NCBI GenBank assembly: GCA_021156175.1
Contig: JAJNBL010000002.1
Span: forward strand, 124,001-188,000
Origin: Rickettsiales bacterium
Lineage (GTDB): Bacteria > Pseudomonadota > Alphaproteobacteria > Rickettsiales > JAJNBL01
Length of the DNA: 64,000 nucleotides
Direction: 5' to 3'
Position 1 is the first letter of the stretch. Every line of letters begins with the position of its first letter. The notes under the pieces are model-generated. The model saw only the letters and a program-made list of their open reading frames with translations. It was not told the origin of the DNA and made no database searches. Positions 15,596 through 50,479 of this stretch are shown here, piece after piece. The translations under genes were made by a program, and so were the position numbers.

Positions 15596-17899
15596 ATGGT
15601 TACCACTTTTGCTACTTCTCGCTCTTCTGGATCGCGTAAAACATTTTACGCAACCATCAGCGCTTTTTGCGTCTGTACAACCTTCCTTACCACTCCGGTA
15701 GCATTCGCAAACCCAACAGGTGGCGTGATTGCTTTCGGTGGCGGAAGCATTAACACCTCTGGAAACAAGGTAACCATCACCCAAACCGGCACTGATAAAG
15801 GTATCATCAACTGGAGTACCTTTAACATTGACACTGGCCAGACAACGGAATTTAAGCAAAAGAATAGCAACTCCATCTCCCTTAACCGTATCGGCGATAC
15901 CAATCCTTCCAGCATTCAAGGTACCTTGAAAGCAAACGGAAAGGTGATCCTAATCAATCCAAATGGTATCGCATTTGGCTCTAACGCCTCTGTGGATGTA
16001 CAGGGATTGATTGCGACCACGGCTGGTATCAGCGATGACGATTTCAAAAACAGCACCGGTAGCTACAACTTCAATATAGCAAGTCCTAACTCAAGTGCTG
16101 CCGTTACCAACCAAAGCAATAACATTTCGATCAAAAACAACGGCCTGCTTGCTTTCGTAGCACCTTCTGTTGAAAACTCCGGTACCATTACCGCAAACAC
16201 CGGAAAAGTGTCTCTTGCTGGTGGCGATACCTTTACGATCGACTTAAACGGCGATGGATTAGTCCAACTTGCTGTAGGAAGCTCGAACACGGATACGAAC
16301 GTAACCAACACCGGCAATATTTATGCATCGGGCGGCACTGTCCAGATTTCTACCCAAACCGCAAGCAATGTTGTCGACAACCTCATCAACATGGACGGTG
16401 TTGTTGAAGCGAAAACCGTAAAAGTTAGCGGCGATGTTATCGTATTATCCGGCGAGACGGATGCAGCCAATGGTGTGGATGGTGGCGCAGTCACCATTAC
16501 GGGAACAGACATTACCGTTAAAAGCACGGGTTCTGTGAAAGCCGATGCAGCACGAGATGGCGGCACTGTTACGATTAATGGAACACACGATGTTCTCATT
16601 GAATCTGGAGCAGAAGTCAGCACGGCAGCAGTCCGTGATGGTGGTTCTATTAGCATCACCGCAGGTGACGATTTATTCATTGAAGATGATGCGAAAGTTA
16701 CTTCAGCAGGCCTAAGAGACGGTGGAAGCATTGCACTTAGCGCAACTGATGACCTCCTTATTGGAGAAGACGCACAAGTACTTGCGAGTGGCGTGCAAGA
16801 TGGTGGTACGATTGATATCACAGCAGGCGATGAATTGACCGTCAAAACCGGTGCTAAAATCGATACAGCAGGCTTACGTGACGGCGGTTCAATCACTCTA
16901 GATGGCAGCGATGTTGTCATCGAAGGTAGCGTTCAAATCATTTCAACAGGCCTAAGAGATGGTGGAAATATTGCTATCGACGGCGATAACATCTTAATCA
17001 AAGATTTTGCTACTATTGATGGTTCTGGCCTCCACGCAAACGGAGCAATCAATGTTGGAAATCCAGAAGCAAATGTTACGATTGAAAAAGATGTCGTTAT
17101 CCGAGGTAACCTCACTGTAACTCCATCGAATAACAGCTCTCCTTACCAAGGAAATGGTGGCATTGATCAAGGTATTGATGATGACACGACACCAGGCGGT
17201 GGCGATGATACGACTCCAGGCGGCGGTGATGATACGACTCCAGGCGGCGGTGATGATACGACTCCAGGCGGCGGTGATGATACGACTCCAGGCGGTGGCG
17301 ATGATACAACACCAGGCGGTGGCGATGATACAACACCAGGCGGTGGCGATGATACAACACCAGGCGGTGGCGATGATACGACTCCAGGCGGTGGCGATGA
17401 TACGACTCCAGGCGGTGGCGATGATACGACTCCAGGCGGTGGCGATGATACGACTCCAGGCGGTGGCAACGACGGCAATGGCGGGTCTGGTAACCCGACC
17501 CCAGGTAACGGGGGCAATGGCTCTCCAAATAGCAACGGCAACCCAAATCCTGGCTCAAATGGCAACGGCGGTAATGGAAATGGCGGAAGCTCCTCCAATG
17601 GCGGCGGATCTGGCGGTGGAAACGCCTTCAGTGGTGATTTCGATTTCGGCTTCTTAGAGCAAGATGAAGACTCTACGGATGAGCAGCTTCTGACGGCAGC
17701 AGATCAAGCATTACCACAAAACCCAATGGCAGAGCCGTATAACCTGACGGAAAATGAGCAAGAGTTAAGCTTGCTTCCTTCTGGTAATGAAGGCAACGGC
17801 GAAGGTTCTGAGCCTAACTTGGAACCAGCAGCTGGTGGGAATCCTAACGGTGGAAACCCTGTCCAATTTGGCAATGGTTACTTAGGGTACAACCAGTAA
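15596..17899 (+). CDS. Two-partner secretion exoprotein (TpsA) with TPS domain, beta-helix repeats and DDTTPGGG array
   Basis: A 767-residue secreted protein. After a signal peptide ending near AFA-NP (about residue 40) comes the TPS/haemagglutinin activity domain (SLNRIGDTNPSSIQG, INPNGIAFG). Residues about 280-490 hold seven or so repeats of about 30 residues with the pattern (L/V)RDGGxIxIxxxD, predicted to be right-handed beta-helix coils. Residues 529-624 are twelve copies of DDTTPGGG, followed by a Gly/Asn-rich and then acidic C-terminus. A PAAG sequence at 744-747 fits the LapG cleavage consensus, and a LapG-type protease gene lies 75 bp away. There is no cysteine outside the signal peptide, unlike the cysteine hook of CdrA. 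AAAAGGTGAAA precedes the ATG. Likely a surface adhesin. Confidence 0.88.
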   Translation: MVTTFATSRSSGSRKTFYATISAFCVCTTFLTTPVAFANPTGGVIAFGGGSINTSGNKVTITQTGTDKGIINWSTFNIDTGQTTEFKQKNSNSISLNRIGDTNPSSIQGTLKANGKVILINPNGIAFGSNASVDVQGLIATTAGISDDDFKNSTGSYNFNIASPNSSAAVTNQSNNISIKNNGLLAFVAPSVENSGTITANTGKVSLAGGDTFTIDLNGDGLVQLAVGSSNTDTNVTNTGNIYASGGTVQISTQTASNVVDNLINMDGVVEAKTVKVSGDVIVLSGETDAANGVDGGAVTITGTDITVKSTGSVKADAARDGGTVTINGTHDVLIESGAEVSTAAVRDGGSISITAGDDLFIEDDAKVTSAGLRDGGSIALSATDDLLIGEDAQVLASGVQDGGTIDITAGDELTVKTGAKIDTAGLRDGGSITLDGSDVVIEGSVQIISTGLRDGGNIAIDGDNILIKDFATIDGSGLHANGAINVGNPEANVTIEKDVVIRGNLTVTPSNNSSPYQGNGGIDQGIDDDTTPGGGDDTTPGGGDDTTPGGGDDTTPGGGDDTTPGGGDDTTPGGGDDTTPGGGDDTTPGGGDDTTPGGGDDTTPGGGDDTTPGGGDDTTPGGGNDGNGGSGNPTPGNGGNGSPNSNGNPNPGSNGNGGNGNGGSSSNGGGSGGGNAFSGDFDFGFLEQDEDSTDEQLLTAADQALPQNPMAEPYNLTENEQELSLLPSGNEGNGEGSEPNLEPAAGGNPNGGNPVQFGNGYLGYNQ
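17180..17467 (+). repeat. Twelve tandem 24-bp coding repeats in tpsA
   Basis: The tract is exactly 288 bp, twelve 24-bp units each encoding DDTTPGGG. Units differ only at silent sites: units 2-4 use GGCGGCGGT, three consecutive units use ACAACACCA, and the last units are identical. That blockwise pattern points to expansion by slippage or unequal exchange, always in frame. Confidence 0.95.
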
Positions 17900-41533: not shown

Positions 41534-43780
41534 CTAGAAGTTTGGGGCTGTAATTTCCGCTGCCTTCGTATTTCTAAAAATTTCCCGCATTTGAGCCTTT
41601 ACATTCTCCGAAGCATAATCCAATGGTGTTTTGCCTTTGAAATCTTTTGTGTTTCTATTTGCTCCTGCCTTCAAGAGAGCTTCGACCCCTTGCAAATTTC
41701 CAGAAGAAACAGCAACATGCAATACTGTAGCTCCCTCAAAATCCTTTGCTTCTATGTCTGCGCCTTGATTTATAATTACTGGTATAAGCTCATTACATCC
41801 ATAATGTGCCGCAAAGTGCAAAAGAGTCGCACCATCCCCATCTGTTTGCGTTACGAATTTTGAGATGCCTTGAAAATATCGTCCGATAGTTTCTATAGAT
41901 CCTGGCTTATGATATTTCAATAAACGGCTTAAATTCCTGAACTCAGCCTCTTTAAGTAACGTAACGACTTCACCAGCATTTGCAGTCTCAGCTATATCAA
42001 GCGGGGTTTGATTGTTCACATCGGGGAGGGTTCTAATCATAAGATTGCTTGTCTCTATAAGTAACGTAATCACCTTAATGTTACTTCTAAATGCGGCCCT
42101 ATGAAGTGCAAATTGCTTTTTAATATTTACCGCCTCTTGCAAAAACCCTTTATTTTCATTTGCCCGTTCATATCTAAGCATAAAAACGGCATTAGCCCGT
42201 CCATTTTCAGCCGCGGTATGAAGGGCTGTTGCACCTTTATTATCCCGGGAATCTATCTTTGCTCCTATATTTTTAAGTAGCTCGATTATATCCACATGTC
42301 CATAACCTGCTGCATAATGTATCGGTTTTTTTCCTTTGTTATCGGATGCTTCTATGTTTGCACCATGCATTTTTAGGCTAATAAGCGCTTCATTATTATT
42401 TGAACCTGCAGCCCAATGCACCGGCGTCCCTCCCATATTTCCCGCTTTTGCCTCTATTTTTGCTATATAATCATCCGGTTGTACCGCTTTGATTTTTTCC
42501 ACAATCGCATTAATCACAGGTGGTTTAGCATATTTGGCAGCAAAATGGAGAAGTGTAACCCCTTTTAGAGCTTTTTGGTTTACAAGATCAGGCGTTTCAT
42601 CAAGCGCAGCCGTAATTTTCGCCAGGCGTTCCTCCTCAGTAATATTCTTATCTTGAATGATAGCGATAGCTTCTTTGAATGTTGCCTTGATTGATGCTCC
42701 TGGTGTGCCTGTTTCATTTACTTTTGCAAGAACTGACTTTTCTTCTCTCAATATTGCATTCTTATCTGCACCTGCTTTTAAGAGAGTTTCGGCCCCTTGC
42801 GTATTTCTAGAAAAAACGGCGGCGTGCAATGCTGTAGCTCCCTCAGAATTCTTTGCCTTTATATCTGCGCCTTGATTTATAAGTAGTGGAATAAGCTCGA
42901 TCCATTTATAACGTACCGCTAAGTGCAAAAGAGTATTGCCATCCTTATCTGTTTGCGTTACCAAATTTGAAATGTTTTCAAAATAAGGCCTGATGCTTTC
43001 TATGTATGCTGGCGCATAATTTTCCAATAAACTGTTTAAATACTCAAATCCAGCCTTTTGGAGTAACGTAACGGCTTCACCATAATTTGCAGCCTCCGCC
43101 ATATGGAGCGGAGATTGATTGTTCGCATCTCGGGAGAAAACACCTGCCTTACCATTTGGTTGCTGTGTAAAAACCTCAATCACTTCATTACTATTTCTAA
43201 AAACCGCCTTATGCAGCGCGGTTTGTCCGTAAATATTTGCCGCATCAGGGGAAACCCCTTTATTGATAAGTAAAGAAACGGCCTTCACCTGCCCATTCTC
43301 AGCCGCGGTATGAAGGGCTGTTGCATCTTTGTTATCTCTGGAATCTAACTTTGCTCCCAGCGTTTTAAGTAAATTAATTACATCCACTTTTCCGTAGCCT
43401 GCTGCATAATGTATCGGTTTTTTTCCTTTGTTATCGGATGCTTCTATATTTGCACCATGCATTTTTAGGCTAATAAGCGCTTCATTATTATTTGAACCTG
43501 CAGCCCAATGCATCGGCGTCCCTCCCATATTTCCCGCTTTTGTCTCTAATTTTGCTTTATAGTCTCCAGGTTGTACCGCTTTGATTTTTTCCACAATCAC
43601 ATCTATCACTTTATTCTTCGCATGCCGCGCAGCAAAATGGAGAAGTGTAACCCCTTTGGAGGTTTTCTTAAGTACAAGATCAGGCGTTTCATTAAGCGCA
43701 GCCGTAATTTTTGCCAGGCGCTCCTCTTCGGTAATCTGGTTATCTTTAAGGATATCGACTGCTTCTTGTAATGTTGCCAT
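41534..43780 (-). CDS. Ankyrin-repeat protein with internal tandem duplication
   Basis: A 748-residue protein made almost wholly of ankyrin repeats (about 18), such as GVTLLHFAARHAKNKVIDVI and KGKKPIHYAAGYGKVDVINLL. The two halves repeat each other with a period of 364 residues (1,092 bp): each opens with a TEEERLAKITAALxETPDLV block. There is no signal peptide or enzymatic domain. Ankyrin proteins mediate protein contacts and in host-associated bacteria are often effectors; nothing here proves secretion. Base composition is clearly more AT-rich than the neighbours, suggesting transfer. It sits between ruvC and the pilus operon, and has a promoter just upstream. Confidence 0.9.
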   Translation of the reverse strand: MATLQEAVDILKDNQITEEERLAKITAALNETPDLVLKKTSKGVTLLHFAARHAKNKVIDVIVEKIKAVQPGDYKAKLETKAGNMGGTPMHWAAGSNNNEALISLKMHGANIEASDNKGKKPIHYAAGYGKVDVINLLKTLGAKLDSRDNKDATALHTAAENGQVKAVSLLINKGVSPDAANIYGQTALHKAVFRNSNEVIEVFTQQPNGKAGVFSRDANNQSPLHMAEAANYGEAVTLLQKAGFEYLNSLLENYAPAYIESIRPYFENISNLVTQTDKDGNTLLHLAVRYKWIELIPLLINQGADIKAKNSEGATALHAAVFSRNTQGAETLLKAGADKNAILREEKSVLAKVNETGTPGASIKATFKEAIAIIQDKNITEEERLAKITAALDETPDLVNQKALKGVTLLHFAAKYAKPPVINAIVEKIKAVQPDDYIAKIEAKAGNMGGTPVHWAAGSNNNEALISLKMHGANIEASDNKGKKPIHYAAGYGHVDIIELLKNIGAKIDSRDNKGATALHTAAENGRANAVFMLRYERANENKGFLQEAVNIKKQFALHRAAFRSNIKVITLLIETSNLMIRTLPDVNNQTPLDIAETANAGEVVTLLKEAEFRNLSRLLKYHKPGSIETIGRYFQGISKFVTQTDGDGATLLHFAAHYGCNELIPVIINQGADIEAKDFEGATVLHVAVSSGNLQGVEALLKAGANRNTKDFKGKTPLDYASENVKAQMREIFRNTKAAEITAPNF

Positions 43781-43824
43781 GGTGATTACTCTTTCTGTTG
43801 GTGCGCCTGTTGCCTACAGCAAAC

Positions 43825-48127: not shown

Positions 48128-49393
48128 ATGCGAATTCTCGTACTTGGATCAGGTGTTATCGGTGTAACCACCGCTTATTATCTCGCAAAGGCGGGGCATG
48201 AGGTTACGGTAGTGGAACGAAACTCCGAAAGCGCGCAGGAAACCAGCTTTGCCAATGGCGGCCAGTTAAGCTACAGCCATGCCGAACCTTGGGCACATCC
48301 GGTGGTGTGGAAGAAGCTCCCAAAATGGCTTTTGGATAAAAATTCTCCGCTTTCCTTTACCGATCCGTTTTCGTTGAAATCCTGGATGTGGGCAGCACAA
48401 TTCCTTGCCCAATGTACCCATGAAAAAAACCGCATGGGCACCCTCAACGTCTTAAGGCTTGCGCTTTATAGCCGCCAATGCATGGATAATCTTTTGAGTG
48501 AGACTGGGATTGATTTCCATTACCAGGATAAAGGCATTTTGCATATTTTCGAGAAAGAGCGCGAACTGGCTGGCGCCATCCAAGAAGCTGAATTCAAAAA
48601 GAGCTTAGGCTGTGATTATACCGTTCTCTCTGCCGCCGAATGCATCGCACGGGAACCTGCTTTTAGAGGAAAAACCGCCGAACGCTTAGCGGGCGGAATT
48701 ATTTTCCCCATTGATAAAACGGGCGATGTCTGCCTCTTTACCCAAGGCCTGGCGATGGCTGCTGAGCGCACTCATACGAAAGTCACATTTAAGTATAATA
48801 CCGCTATTTATGGGCTTACCCATGAAGGTGATAAAATCACGGGCGTGGTGACGAATGATGGCGTGCTCCAGGCGGATGCTTATGTTGTTGCCTTAGGTTC
48901 ATACAGCCCACTGGTGCTACAAAGTGCGGGGATAAACGTCCCCATTTATCCGCTCAAAGGTTATAGTATTTCGATCCCGGTCGATGACCATAAAGACGCG
49001 CCGAGCATCGGCATAACGGACCAAGCACGGAAGATTGTTTACAGCCGCTTAGGCAATATCCTCCGTATCGCAGGAACTGCGGAACTGGCTGGCCATAACC
49101 CGAAAGTACGCCAAAGCCGGATCAACTCGATCATCCAAGCCGTTAAAGAAACCTTCCCGGATGCAGGCGACTTCTCCAAACTCACCTCCTGGGCATGCTT
49201 ACGTTCTTCGACCCCCGATGGCGCGCCCGTGTTAGGAGAAAGCCGTTACGACAATCTATTCTTTAACACCGGCCAAGGCTCACTTGGCTGGACGCTCGCC
49301 TGCGGTTCTTCGAAAATCGTTGCGGATCTTATTGATGGGAAAAAACCGGATATAGATATCACCGGCATGACCGGCGAGCGATTTGGAAATTAG
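48128..49393 (+). CDS. dadA: D-amino-acid dehydrogenase
   Basis: A 421-residue FAD-dependent oxidoreductase of the DadA family, membrane-associated, that deaminates D-amino acids (mostly D-alanine) and passes electrons to the respiratory chain. The Rossmann motif VLGSGVIGVTTAYYLAKAG and the second FAD segment ERNSESAQETSFANGGQLS are typical; PLKGYSIS and the C-terminal NTGQGSLGWTLACGSSKIVADLI complete it. No alanine racemase gene is adjacent. It ends with a four-base overlap against a convergent lipoprotein gene. Confidence 0.94.
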   Translation: MRILVLGSGVIGVTTAYYLAKAGHEVTVVERNSESAQETSFANGGQLSYSHAEPWAHPVVWKKLPKWLLDKNSPLSFTDPFSLKSWMWAAQFLAQCTHEKNRMGTLNVLRLALYSRQCMDNLLSETGIDFHYQDKGILHIFEKERELAGAIQEAEFKKSLGCDYTVLSAAECIAREPAFRGKTAERLAGGIIFPIDKTGDVCLFTQGLAMAAERTHTKVTFKYNTAIYGLTHEGDKITGVVTNDGVLQADAYVVALGSYSPLVLQSAGINVPIYPLKGYSISIPVDDHKDAPSIGITDQARKIVYSRLGNILRIAGTAELAGHNPKVRQSRINSIIQAVKETFPDAGDFSKLTSWACLRSSTPDGAPVLGESRYDNLFFNTGQGSLGWTLACGSSKIVADLIDGKKPDIDITGMTGERFGN

Positions 49394-49701
49394 TTGCCTA
49401 AAGTCTCCATATTATGCTGGTAGATATATTTCCGGCAATGACTATACGCCGCTTCCCAGCCGGAAACATATTGCTGGTTATCGAGCATCCGCCAATCCTG
49501 ACGGTATTTGTATTTAAAACGGAATAGGTGGTTTGCGGCGGATTGCGCACCGGATTCGCACCCATCCTGCCACCCTTTCACATAATCCGCATGATACATC
49601 CGATTGCCCGGCGGCTTCTGAAACATCTCATATTGCCAGACAGGCACATTCTGACAGGCAGCCAGAGAGAGGAAAAGCGTACATAGAAATATGTTACGCA
49701 T
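49390..49701 (-). CDS. Small lipoprotein A of a three-gene paralogous set
   Basis: A 103-residue lipoprotein with signal peptide and lipobox LAAC (Cys near residue 16). The mature part carries YVKGWQDGCES near its start and SGWEAAYSHCRKY near its end: two conserved cysteines that could form a disulfide in the periplasm. The same pattern recurs in the two upstream genes. I do not recognise a named family. Third in the likely operon. Confidence 0.75.
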   Translation of the reverse strand: MRNIFLCTLFLSLAACQNVPVWQYEMFQKPPGNRMYHADYVKGWQDGCESGAQSAANHLFRFKYKYRQDWRMLDNQQYVSGWEAAYSHCRKYIYQHNMETLGN

Positions 49702-49711
49702 TGAAAGCCTT

Positions 49712-50149
49712 TTATAAGTTATAACGCGACATGGCTCTAAGCGAAAACCCACAATGCTGATAACCATATCCCCACGCTTTTCGATAAAGCCAATCTTTCT
49801 GCCAACGTACAGTATCCAACGTATAACGGTGGGTTTTCAAGAAAAGCTGTAAATTGGTATTTGTCGCCGCCACACTGGATTCACACCCATCGCTCCAGCC
49901 TTTCTGGTAGTTTTCAGGGCCTTCGGGTGGGTTCATATCCAAGCTCACCGGCTTCGTTAGGTCGAGCGTATGGTTCTGCCCCGTACAGGCTGTGAGACTA
50001 AGCAGAAGGAGTACCAATATCGTGCAGCCAACCGTTCTGAAATGGGCTAGGCCGTCAGCGAAAATGGGATTTTGCGAGCATCGAAGCGGAGCGTACTTTA
50101 CAGTACGTGAGCATCGAAGCGCAGTAAAATTCGATTTGCAGCACGGCAT
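49712..50149 (-). CDS. Small lipoprotein B of a three-gene paralogous set, N-terminus encoded by a palindromic element
   Basis: A lipoprotein with the hydrophobic stretch TILVLLLLSLTAC as signal core and lipobox, and the family pattern YQKGWSDGCES...KAWGYGYQHC. The only in-frame ATG lies inside the palindromic element (50149), preceded by TAGGAAATC, which overlaps the stop of lipoprotein C and could serve as ribosome site. That gives 145 residues with a 36-residue, element-encoded leader. The alternative is a TTG about 100 bases downstream, which would leave a very short signal peptide. Either the element moved into the old start or the gene uses it. Confidence 0.6.
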   Translation of the reverse strand: MPCCKSNFTALRCSRTVKYAPLRCSQNPIFADGLAHFRTVGCTILVLLLLSLTACTGQNHTLDLTKPVSLDMNPPEGPENYQKGWSDGCESSVAATNTNLQLFLKTHRYTLDTVRWQKDWLYRKAWGYGYQHCGFSLRAMSRYNL

Positions 50150-50158
50150 AGAGATTTC
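50040..50158. repeat. Palindromic intergenic element, copy 8
   Basis: A full copy between lipoproteins C and B. Centre GCGTACTTTACAGTACGTGA, flanked by GAGCATCGAAGCG-type repeats on both sides; outer arms GGGCTAGGCCGTC and GCACGGCATAGAGATTT. It begins next to the lipoprotein C stop (TAG at 50159-50161) and is open through into lipoprotein B. Confidence 0.88.
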
Positions 50159-50479
50159 CTATAGGATAGTAGCCTTAAATACATACGCACTACAATACCG
50201 ATCCCCATTATCATAGCCTTGCTGATAAAGGCGATCGTAGACCGCAAGCGGGTTGGGGGAGGAATCATAGAGCCTCAGCATCCCCTGGCCATTTTGCCCC
50301 ATGAAATGGTAGCACCCGTCCCGGAATCCTTTGCTAAAACTATCATCCCCTTTGGGCAGGTTCCGCATCCAGGTCGGCATCGGGGTGAACATGCCATAAC
50401 GGTTCTCTTCCCCATAAAGCGCACCACAAGCACTAAGAAGAAAGCAGGCCATAATACCTAAATTTCTCAGTATTAACAT
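50159..50479 (-). CDS. Small lipoprotein C of a three-gene paralogous set
   Basis: A 106-residue lipoprotein (MLILRNLGIMACFLLSAC, lipobox LLSAC). The mature part has FSKGFRDGCYHF and LYQQGYDNGDRYCSAYVF, matching the KG(W/F)xDGC...(Y/W)xxG(W/Y)...C pattern of its two neighbours. First gene of the set, about 40 bases after a consensus promoter. The function is unknown. Confidence 0.78.
   Translation of the reverse strand: MLILRNLGIMACFLLSACGALYGEENRYGMFTPMPTWMRNLPKGDDSFSKGFRDGCYHFMGQNGQGMLRLYDSSPNPLAVYDRLYQQGYDNGDRYCSAYVFKATIL

Follow-up and report, generated by a model that had tools for sequence, protein, structure and literature searches.

A mobile palindrome at the 5' end of a small lipoprotein gene in a Rickettsiales bacterium and the probable takeover of the gene's start

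Organization of the lipoprotein B locus

The window, which is the whole stretch of 64,000 nucleotides analysed here, carries on its minus strand a row of three small lipoprotein genes of one tandem family: gene C upstream (50159..50479), lipoprotein B (49712-50149, 145 aa), and gene A downstream (49390..49701), which possesses its own AAAAGG and ATG. No Pfam or NCBIfam family matched lipoproteins A, B, or C, a fold search with B gave no match at E up to 0.001, and no relative of B passed confirmation in the viral contigs searched. Tandem arrays of small lipoproteins with conserved GW.DGC and YC motifs are widespread in the order, occurring at 49390-50479 here and at ~79-80 kb and 272-274 kb of G000:C4. 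Elsewhere in the window lie an array of 24-bp tandem repeat units (17132-17539) and long direct repeats ~1.1 kb apart that are 77-88% identical and are probably duplicated genes (41647-43798).

A palindromic mobile element of 120 bp, with arms GAAAT...ATTTC, lies between genes C and B (50039..50158, minus strand), where it abuts the stop codon of C on one side and the sequence AGA ACG GTT GGC TGC of B on the other. The putative start codon of B (ATG, 50147..50149, minus strand) is located within this element. Sequence-only reading of the locus had described it as the sole ATG in frame with B; it is indeed the only one upstream of the signal peptide, but the reading frame holds two others, at codons 72 and 140. 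The sequence 5' of the ATG reads CTA TAG GAAATCTCT ATG, and its TAG is where gene C terminates. A candidate Shine-Dalgarno sequence, AGGA (50157..50160, minus strand), can be read 7 nt before the ATG, and draws A50160 and G50159 from the stop codon of C and G50158 and A50157 from the element arm, in agreement with the overlap of TAGGAA and the preceding stop that had been pointed out earlier. As had also been proposed, the element is open through to the signal peptide of B, and the uninterrupted stretch comprises 37 codons (M1-F37; 50039..50149, minus strand), not the 36 residues first counted.

The element-encoded codons form an extended n-region that is predicted to be unstructured before residue 34. 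They are followed by the retained native signal peptide RTVGCTILVLLLLSLTA (codons 38-54; 49988..50038, minus strand), which precedes the lipobox cysteine in a 17-sequence alignment (A1), and by the mature lipoprotein, which extends from Cys55 to codon 145 and the stop codon (49712..49987, minus strand). No native ATG is left adjoining the retained signal peptide, and the only codons between the element and Cys55 that can serve as starts in translation table 11 are ATA44, TTG45, and CTG49. A lipobox conforms to [LVI][ASTVI][GAS]C, and lipoprotein processing normally removes everything before its cysteine. In B the lipobox is LTAC at residues 52-55, Cys55 is invariant in A1, and all the family-invariant residues of the alignment are retained. 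The structure prediction for B gave block pLDDT values of 52-63 with no structure before residue 34, a helix at residues 34-52 just before the lipobox cysteine, and a helical domain for the mature part, in which most blocks from residue 71 have pLDDT values of 79-98. B therefore possesses the hydrophobic helix followed by a lipobox that is expected of a lipoprotein precursor, but not the short n-region: with a start at the element ATG, 54 residues would precede Cys55, compared to 13-25 in 25 of 27 orthologue loci, and a 37-residue extension ahead of a lipoprotein signal peptide is unusual.

RNA folding predicts that the ATG of B is paired, with an unpaired probability of 0.06-0.12. Averaged over positions -15 to +3, the unpaired probability is 0.51 for B, 0.59 for C, and 0.34 for A, and by this model the start region of B is no more closed than those of its neighbours.

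Distribution and structure of the palindromic element

Of the 30 element copies aligned in A3, 29 were used to construct a covariance model (R1), with the poorly alignable copy L050 omitted. The model places the copy at B precisely at 50158..50039 (108.8 bits, E 4.4e-25). Its training set includes this copy; independent of the model is the blastn match between the element at B and its nearest copy (88% identity, E 1.1e-35). In 15 of 21 consensus pairs, changes occur on both sides and keep the pairing. The left-end GAAAU of the copy at B pairs with its right-end AUUUC in the RNA fold, and the hairpin is moderately stable relative to shuffled sequences (z -1.68; 12 of 200 shuffles as stable).

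Iterated nhmmer detected eight copies of the element in the window. In the whole genome, blastn at E up to 10 returned 40 rows, several of them very weak, and R1 at E up to 0.1 returned 82 rows, of which 17 were dropped (12 that repeat a place on the opposite strand, and five weak), leaving 65 distinct places, the weakest of which may be chance. Within the order, at least 22 of 55 genomes carry the element (E up to 1e-4, source genome included), and none of the genomes compared belongs to the same family as the source genome. Pieces were also found by blastn on 15 plasmid records from Sphingobium, Agrobacterium, Phyllobacterium, Allorhizobium, Rhizobium, and Aminobacter. Two plasmid copies that were read closely are both intergenic (R1 scores of 92.9 and 72.4 bits), and element copies in general are mostly intergenic.

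These features resemble those of a miniature inverted-repeat transposable element (MITE), a class of palindromes of ~100-200 bp: the element has many dispersed copies, and mobility is indicated by filled and empty sites, the empty-site loci (L058 and L059) being distant relatives. No family in Rfam matches the element, and no clear target-site duplication was found at the copy at B. TA flanks both ends of some copies, though not of this one. The boundaries of the element are uncertain by several bases, and the palindrome of some copies seems to reach further outward. Copies L036, L040, L044, and L048 constitute a subfamily with different yet complementary ends that seems longer outward.

Coding potential of the element

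From motifs shared with the copy that precedes acyP (SRTVKY and LRCSQ), it had been suggested that the reading frame of the element is itself conserved, which did not hold when all copies were considered. Only seven of 30 copies are open in the frame used by B. Heterozygosity at the three codon positions is 0.359, 0.345, and 0.372, without a third-position excess (permutation fraction 0.33). The core of the copy before acyP lies in a phase different from that of B, and acyP has its own ATG downstream. The likeness of the two translated stretches is attributable to conservation of DNA and not of a peptide, and the element frame is, judged by these counts, not under protein selection.

Orthologues and empty sites

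At E up to 0.001, 33 of 55 genomes gave matches to B, some of which cover nothing but the element-derived part, and the B-family orthologue set comprises 27 named loci. None of the 27 loci has the element beside the gene, with one weak match located 2 kb off in L065. A script that sought orthologue starts at the signal peptide found ATG in 23 of the 27 loci and GTG in two, lying 13-25 residues before the first cysteine that fits the lipobox; the pattern missed L075 and L082, and in L058 it chose a cysteine earlier than the conserved one. Orthologues with a non-ATG start past the site of the element, which had been named in advance as contrary evidence, are thus generally absent.

Two loci from other alphaproteobacteria, L058 (CALCTU010000206.1) and L059 (JAUIFA010000001.1), retain the C-B-A gene order. 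Identity to L058 is 54% for B (over 108 columns), 54% for C, and 61% for A. Both loci lack the element, and in both B begins with an ATG directly at the signal peptide. In L058 the first ATG of B overlaps the stop codon of C (TAATGAG) and the protein reads MRDRKMFNVTRNMIVIGC..., and in L059 gene C ends in TAG, which is followed by AT and then by ATG AAA AAG of B. The RTVGC... that follows the element in the window corresponds to IVIGC... of L058 B, and the BLASTP alignment of the two proteins begins only at residue 39. Given that B starts right at the signal peptide, by an ATG, in the syntenic loci without the element, the element at the start of B is a secondary insertion, and the comparative evidence for this insertion is stronger than that given by similarity search alone.

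The identity of the window protein to its L059 counterpart was compared with that between L058 and L059, giving 0.45 and 0.42 for B, 0.41 and 0.44 for C, and 0.485 and 0.505 for A. By these values, the evolution of B is no faster than that of the adjacent genes C and A.

Other genes adjoining element copies

Open frames beginning in the element were scanned in 154 copies: the 65 in the source genome and 89 from relatives among the matches listed. Of the 65, 30 carry an ATG close to their left end, as do 39 of the 89, and this ATG is open to the element end in nine of the 65 and nine of the 89. Across these copies, with those of relatives taken from the matches listed, B appears to be the only convincing start donor. 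Genes which we take from their translations to be acyP, gpsA, and proA, as well as others, were rejected as cases of start donation, as each has its own ATG just downstream of the element, and the remaining candidates are short or unidentified frames and unconvincing. In one relative copy (L221), the frame runs 59 codons past the element. The copy nearest to the element at B (L086:1501-1620; G000:C9:114136-114255) follows AGGAG and has an ATG and an open frame, which give a 56-aa ORF; the element provides 37 of its codons and the flanking DNA 19, and no known gene is joined to it.

A second fusion is internal. A degenerate copy (L137:1536-1657; G000:C4:292935-293056; 34 bits with R1) is embedded in frame in a putA-like gene, where query residues 402-450 (49 residues) replace chain residues 409-415 (seven residues) of the solved PutA structure 3haz. 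B and putA are the two credible fusions among the 65 places, and neither a conserved peptide nor frequent in-frame coding insertion, as seen in Rickettsia palindromic elements (RPEs), was found.

Interpretation of the insertion at B

The reading that we favour, with a probability of about 0.62, is that the element was inserted at the 5' end of B and that B is made from the ATG at 50149, the foreign residues being cleaved off and the mature protein left unchanged. A MITE-like palindrome entered between the stop codon of C and the signal-peptide codons of B, and the ATG near its left end, which is common among copies, would have happened to lie in frame with the signal peptide. Translation from this ATG would give a precursor of 145 aa. 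Initiation on B is probably coupled to termination on C, which is plausible given that the stop codon of C overlaps the AGGA. Lipoprotein signal peptidase would cut at LTA-C55 and remove the 37 foreign residues together with the native signal peptide, given that all the element residues precede the lipobox. The insertion was probably tolerated because it is located in the discarded part of the precursor, and the leader of B would be a chance survivor and not a designed feature.

A serious rival, though an unlikely one, is that the insertion silenced B, that the in-frame position of the element ATG is fortuitous, and that B is a young, intact-looking pseudogene. In simulations of neutral decay the frame survived with a frequency of 0.47 at 2% divergence and 0.12 at 6%, so a young insertion could leave a silenced B open; for the same reason, the distance of B to its relatives, which is like that of its neighbours, and its retained family residues constitute only moderate evidence that the gene is alive. 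Divergence between the element at B and the copy nearest to it amounts to 12%, and an ATG open to the element end arises by chance in nine of the 65 copies of the genome, both of which are compatible with silencing. Set against these points are the retention of every family-invariant residue, the divergence of B, which is no greater than that of C and A, and the good spacing of AGGA to the ATG.

Also unlikely is the proposal that the Shine-Dalgarno sequence and ATG are native to B and that the element, having entered immediately 3' of this ATG, contributed the leader and not the start codon. TAGGAAATCTCTATG would then belong to the original leader of B. The AATAGGAAATAACCGC-ATG of the gene C leader resembles TATAGGAAATCTCT-ATG at B, the similar leader of gene C being TAGGAAATAACCGC-ATG, and the element ends at 50039 right before AGA (codon 38), such that ATG-AGA-ACG would make a normal signal-peptide start. 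The ATG-bearing segment nevertheless looks like part of the element, since CTATGCC recurs at the same position in copies L029, L035, and L039 and the arm GAAAT pairs with the right-end ATTTC.

Least credible of all is a start at a non-ATG codon past the element (ACG39, ATA44, or TTG45), which would make the element frame irrelevant: TTG45 and ATA44 are available in frame and the long extension would never be made, but TTG45 leaves just ten residues and no positive charge before Cys55, none of the three is preceded by a good purine-rich site at normal spacing, and 25 of 27 orthologue loci have ATG or GTG 13-25 residues before the cysteine.

Insertion with start donation, our preferred reading, would represent a clean, syntenically documented takeover of a gene start by a small mobile palindrome in a conserved gene row. 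It matters for annotation, as the N-terminus of B is not homologous to its family, and it suggests a testable rule, namely that a gene tolerates an insertion ahead of a signal peptide that is cleaved off, since the mature protein then contains none of the foreign residues. A wider proposal, that the element family provides a portable start codon together with a disposable leader and so reconnects genes whose starts it destroys, is very unlikely; if true, the arm ATG could fall behind a Shine-Dalgarno sequence of the host, and genes with signal peptides would be the preferred survivors, since their leader is cleaved off.

Comparison with known systems

RPEs are described as palindromes of ~105-150 bp that form hairpins, occur in many copies, and may sit in frame in genes, which they do in nearly half of cases and with a conserved peptide (PMC2229807, PMC10969869). 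The element described here shares with RPEs the palindrome size, the hairpin, the high copy number, and the possibility of in-frame placement, and the putA insert is RPE-like in that sense. Unlike RPEs as portrayed there, its copies are mostly intergenic and its frame is not conserved.

A limited search of the open-licence literature found no report of start-codon donation by such elements. Coxiella QMITEs alter protein ends by in-frame insertion, and in the enhC case that is described the element adds C-terminal residues and a stop codon (PMC5896051), whereas the element at B would instead supply the start codon. MITE-derived N-termini are themselves already known, as the Yersinia RU-2/YPAL element supplies the N-terminus of YPO1552 (Delihas 2007, PMC2759123). 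The Yersinia element, which is of a different family from that at B, contributes to the signal peptide itself, for which cleavage is predicted after residue 41 (PMC2759123), whereas at B a native lipoprotein signal peptide follows the element. In contrast to YPO1552, the insertion at B is shown by orthologous loci that lack the element while keeping the gene order.
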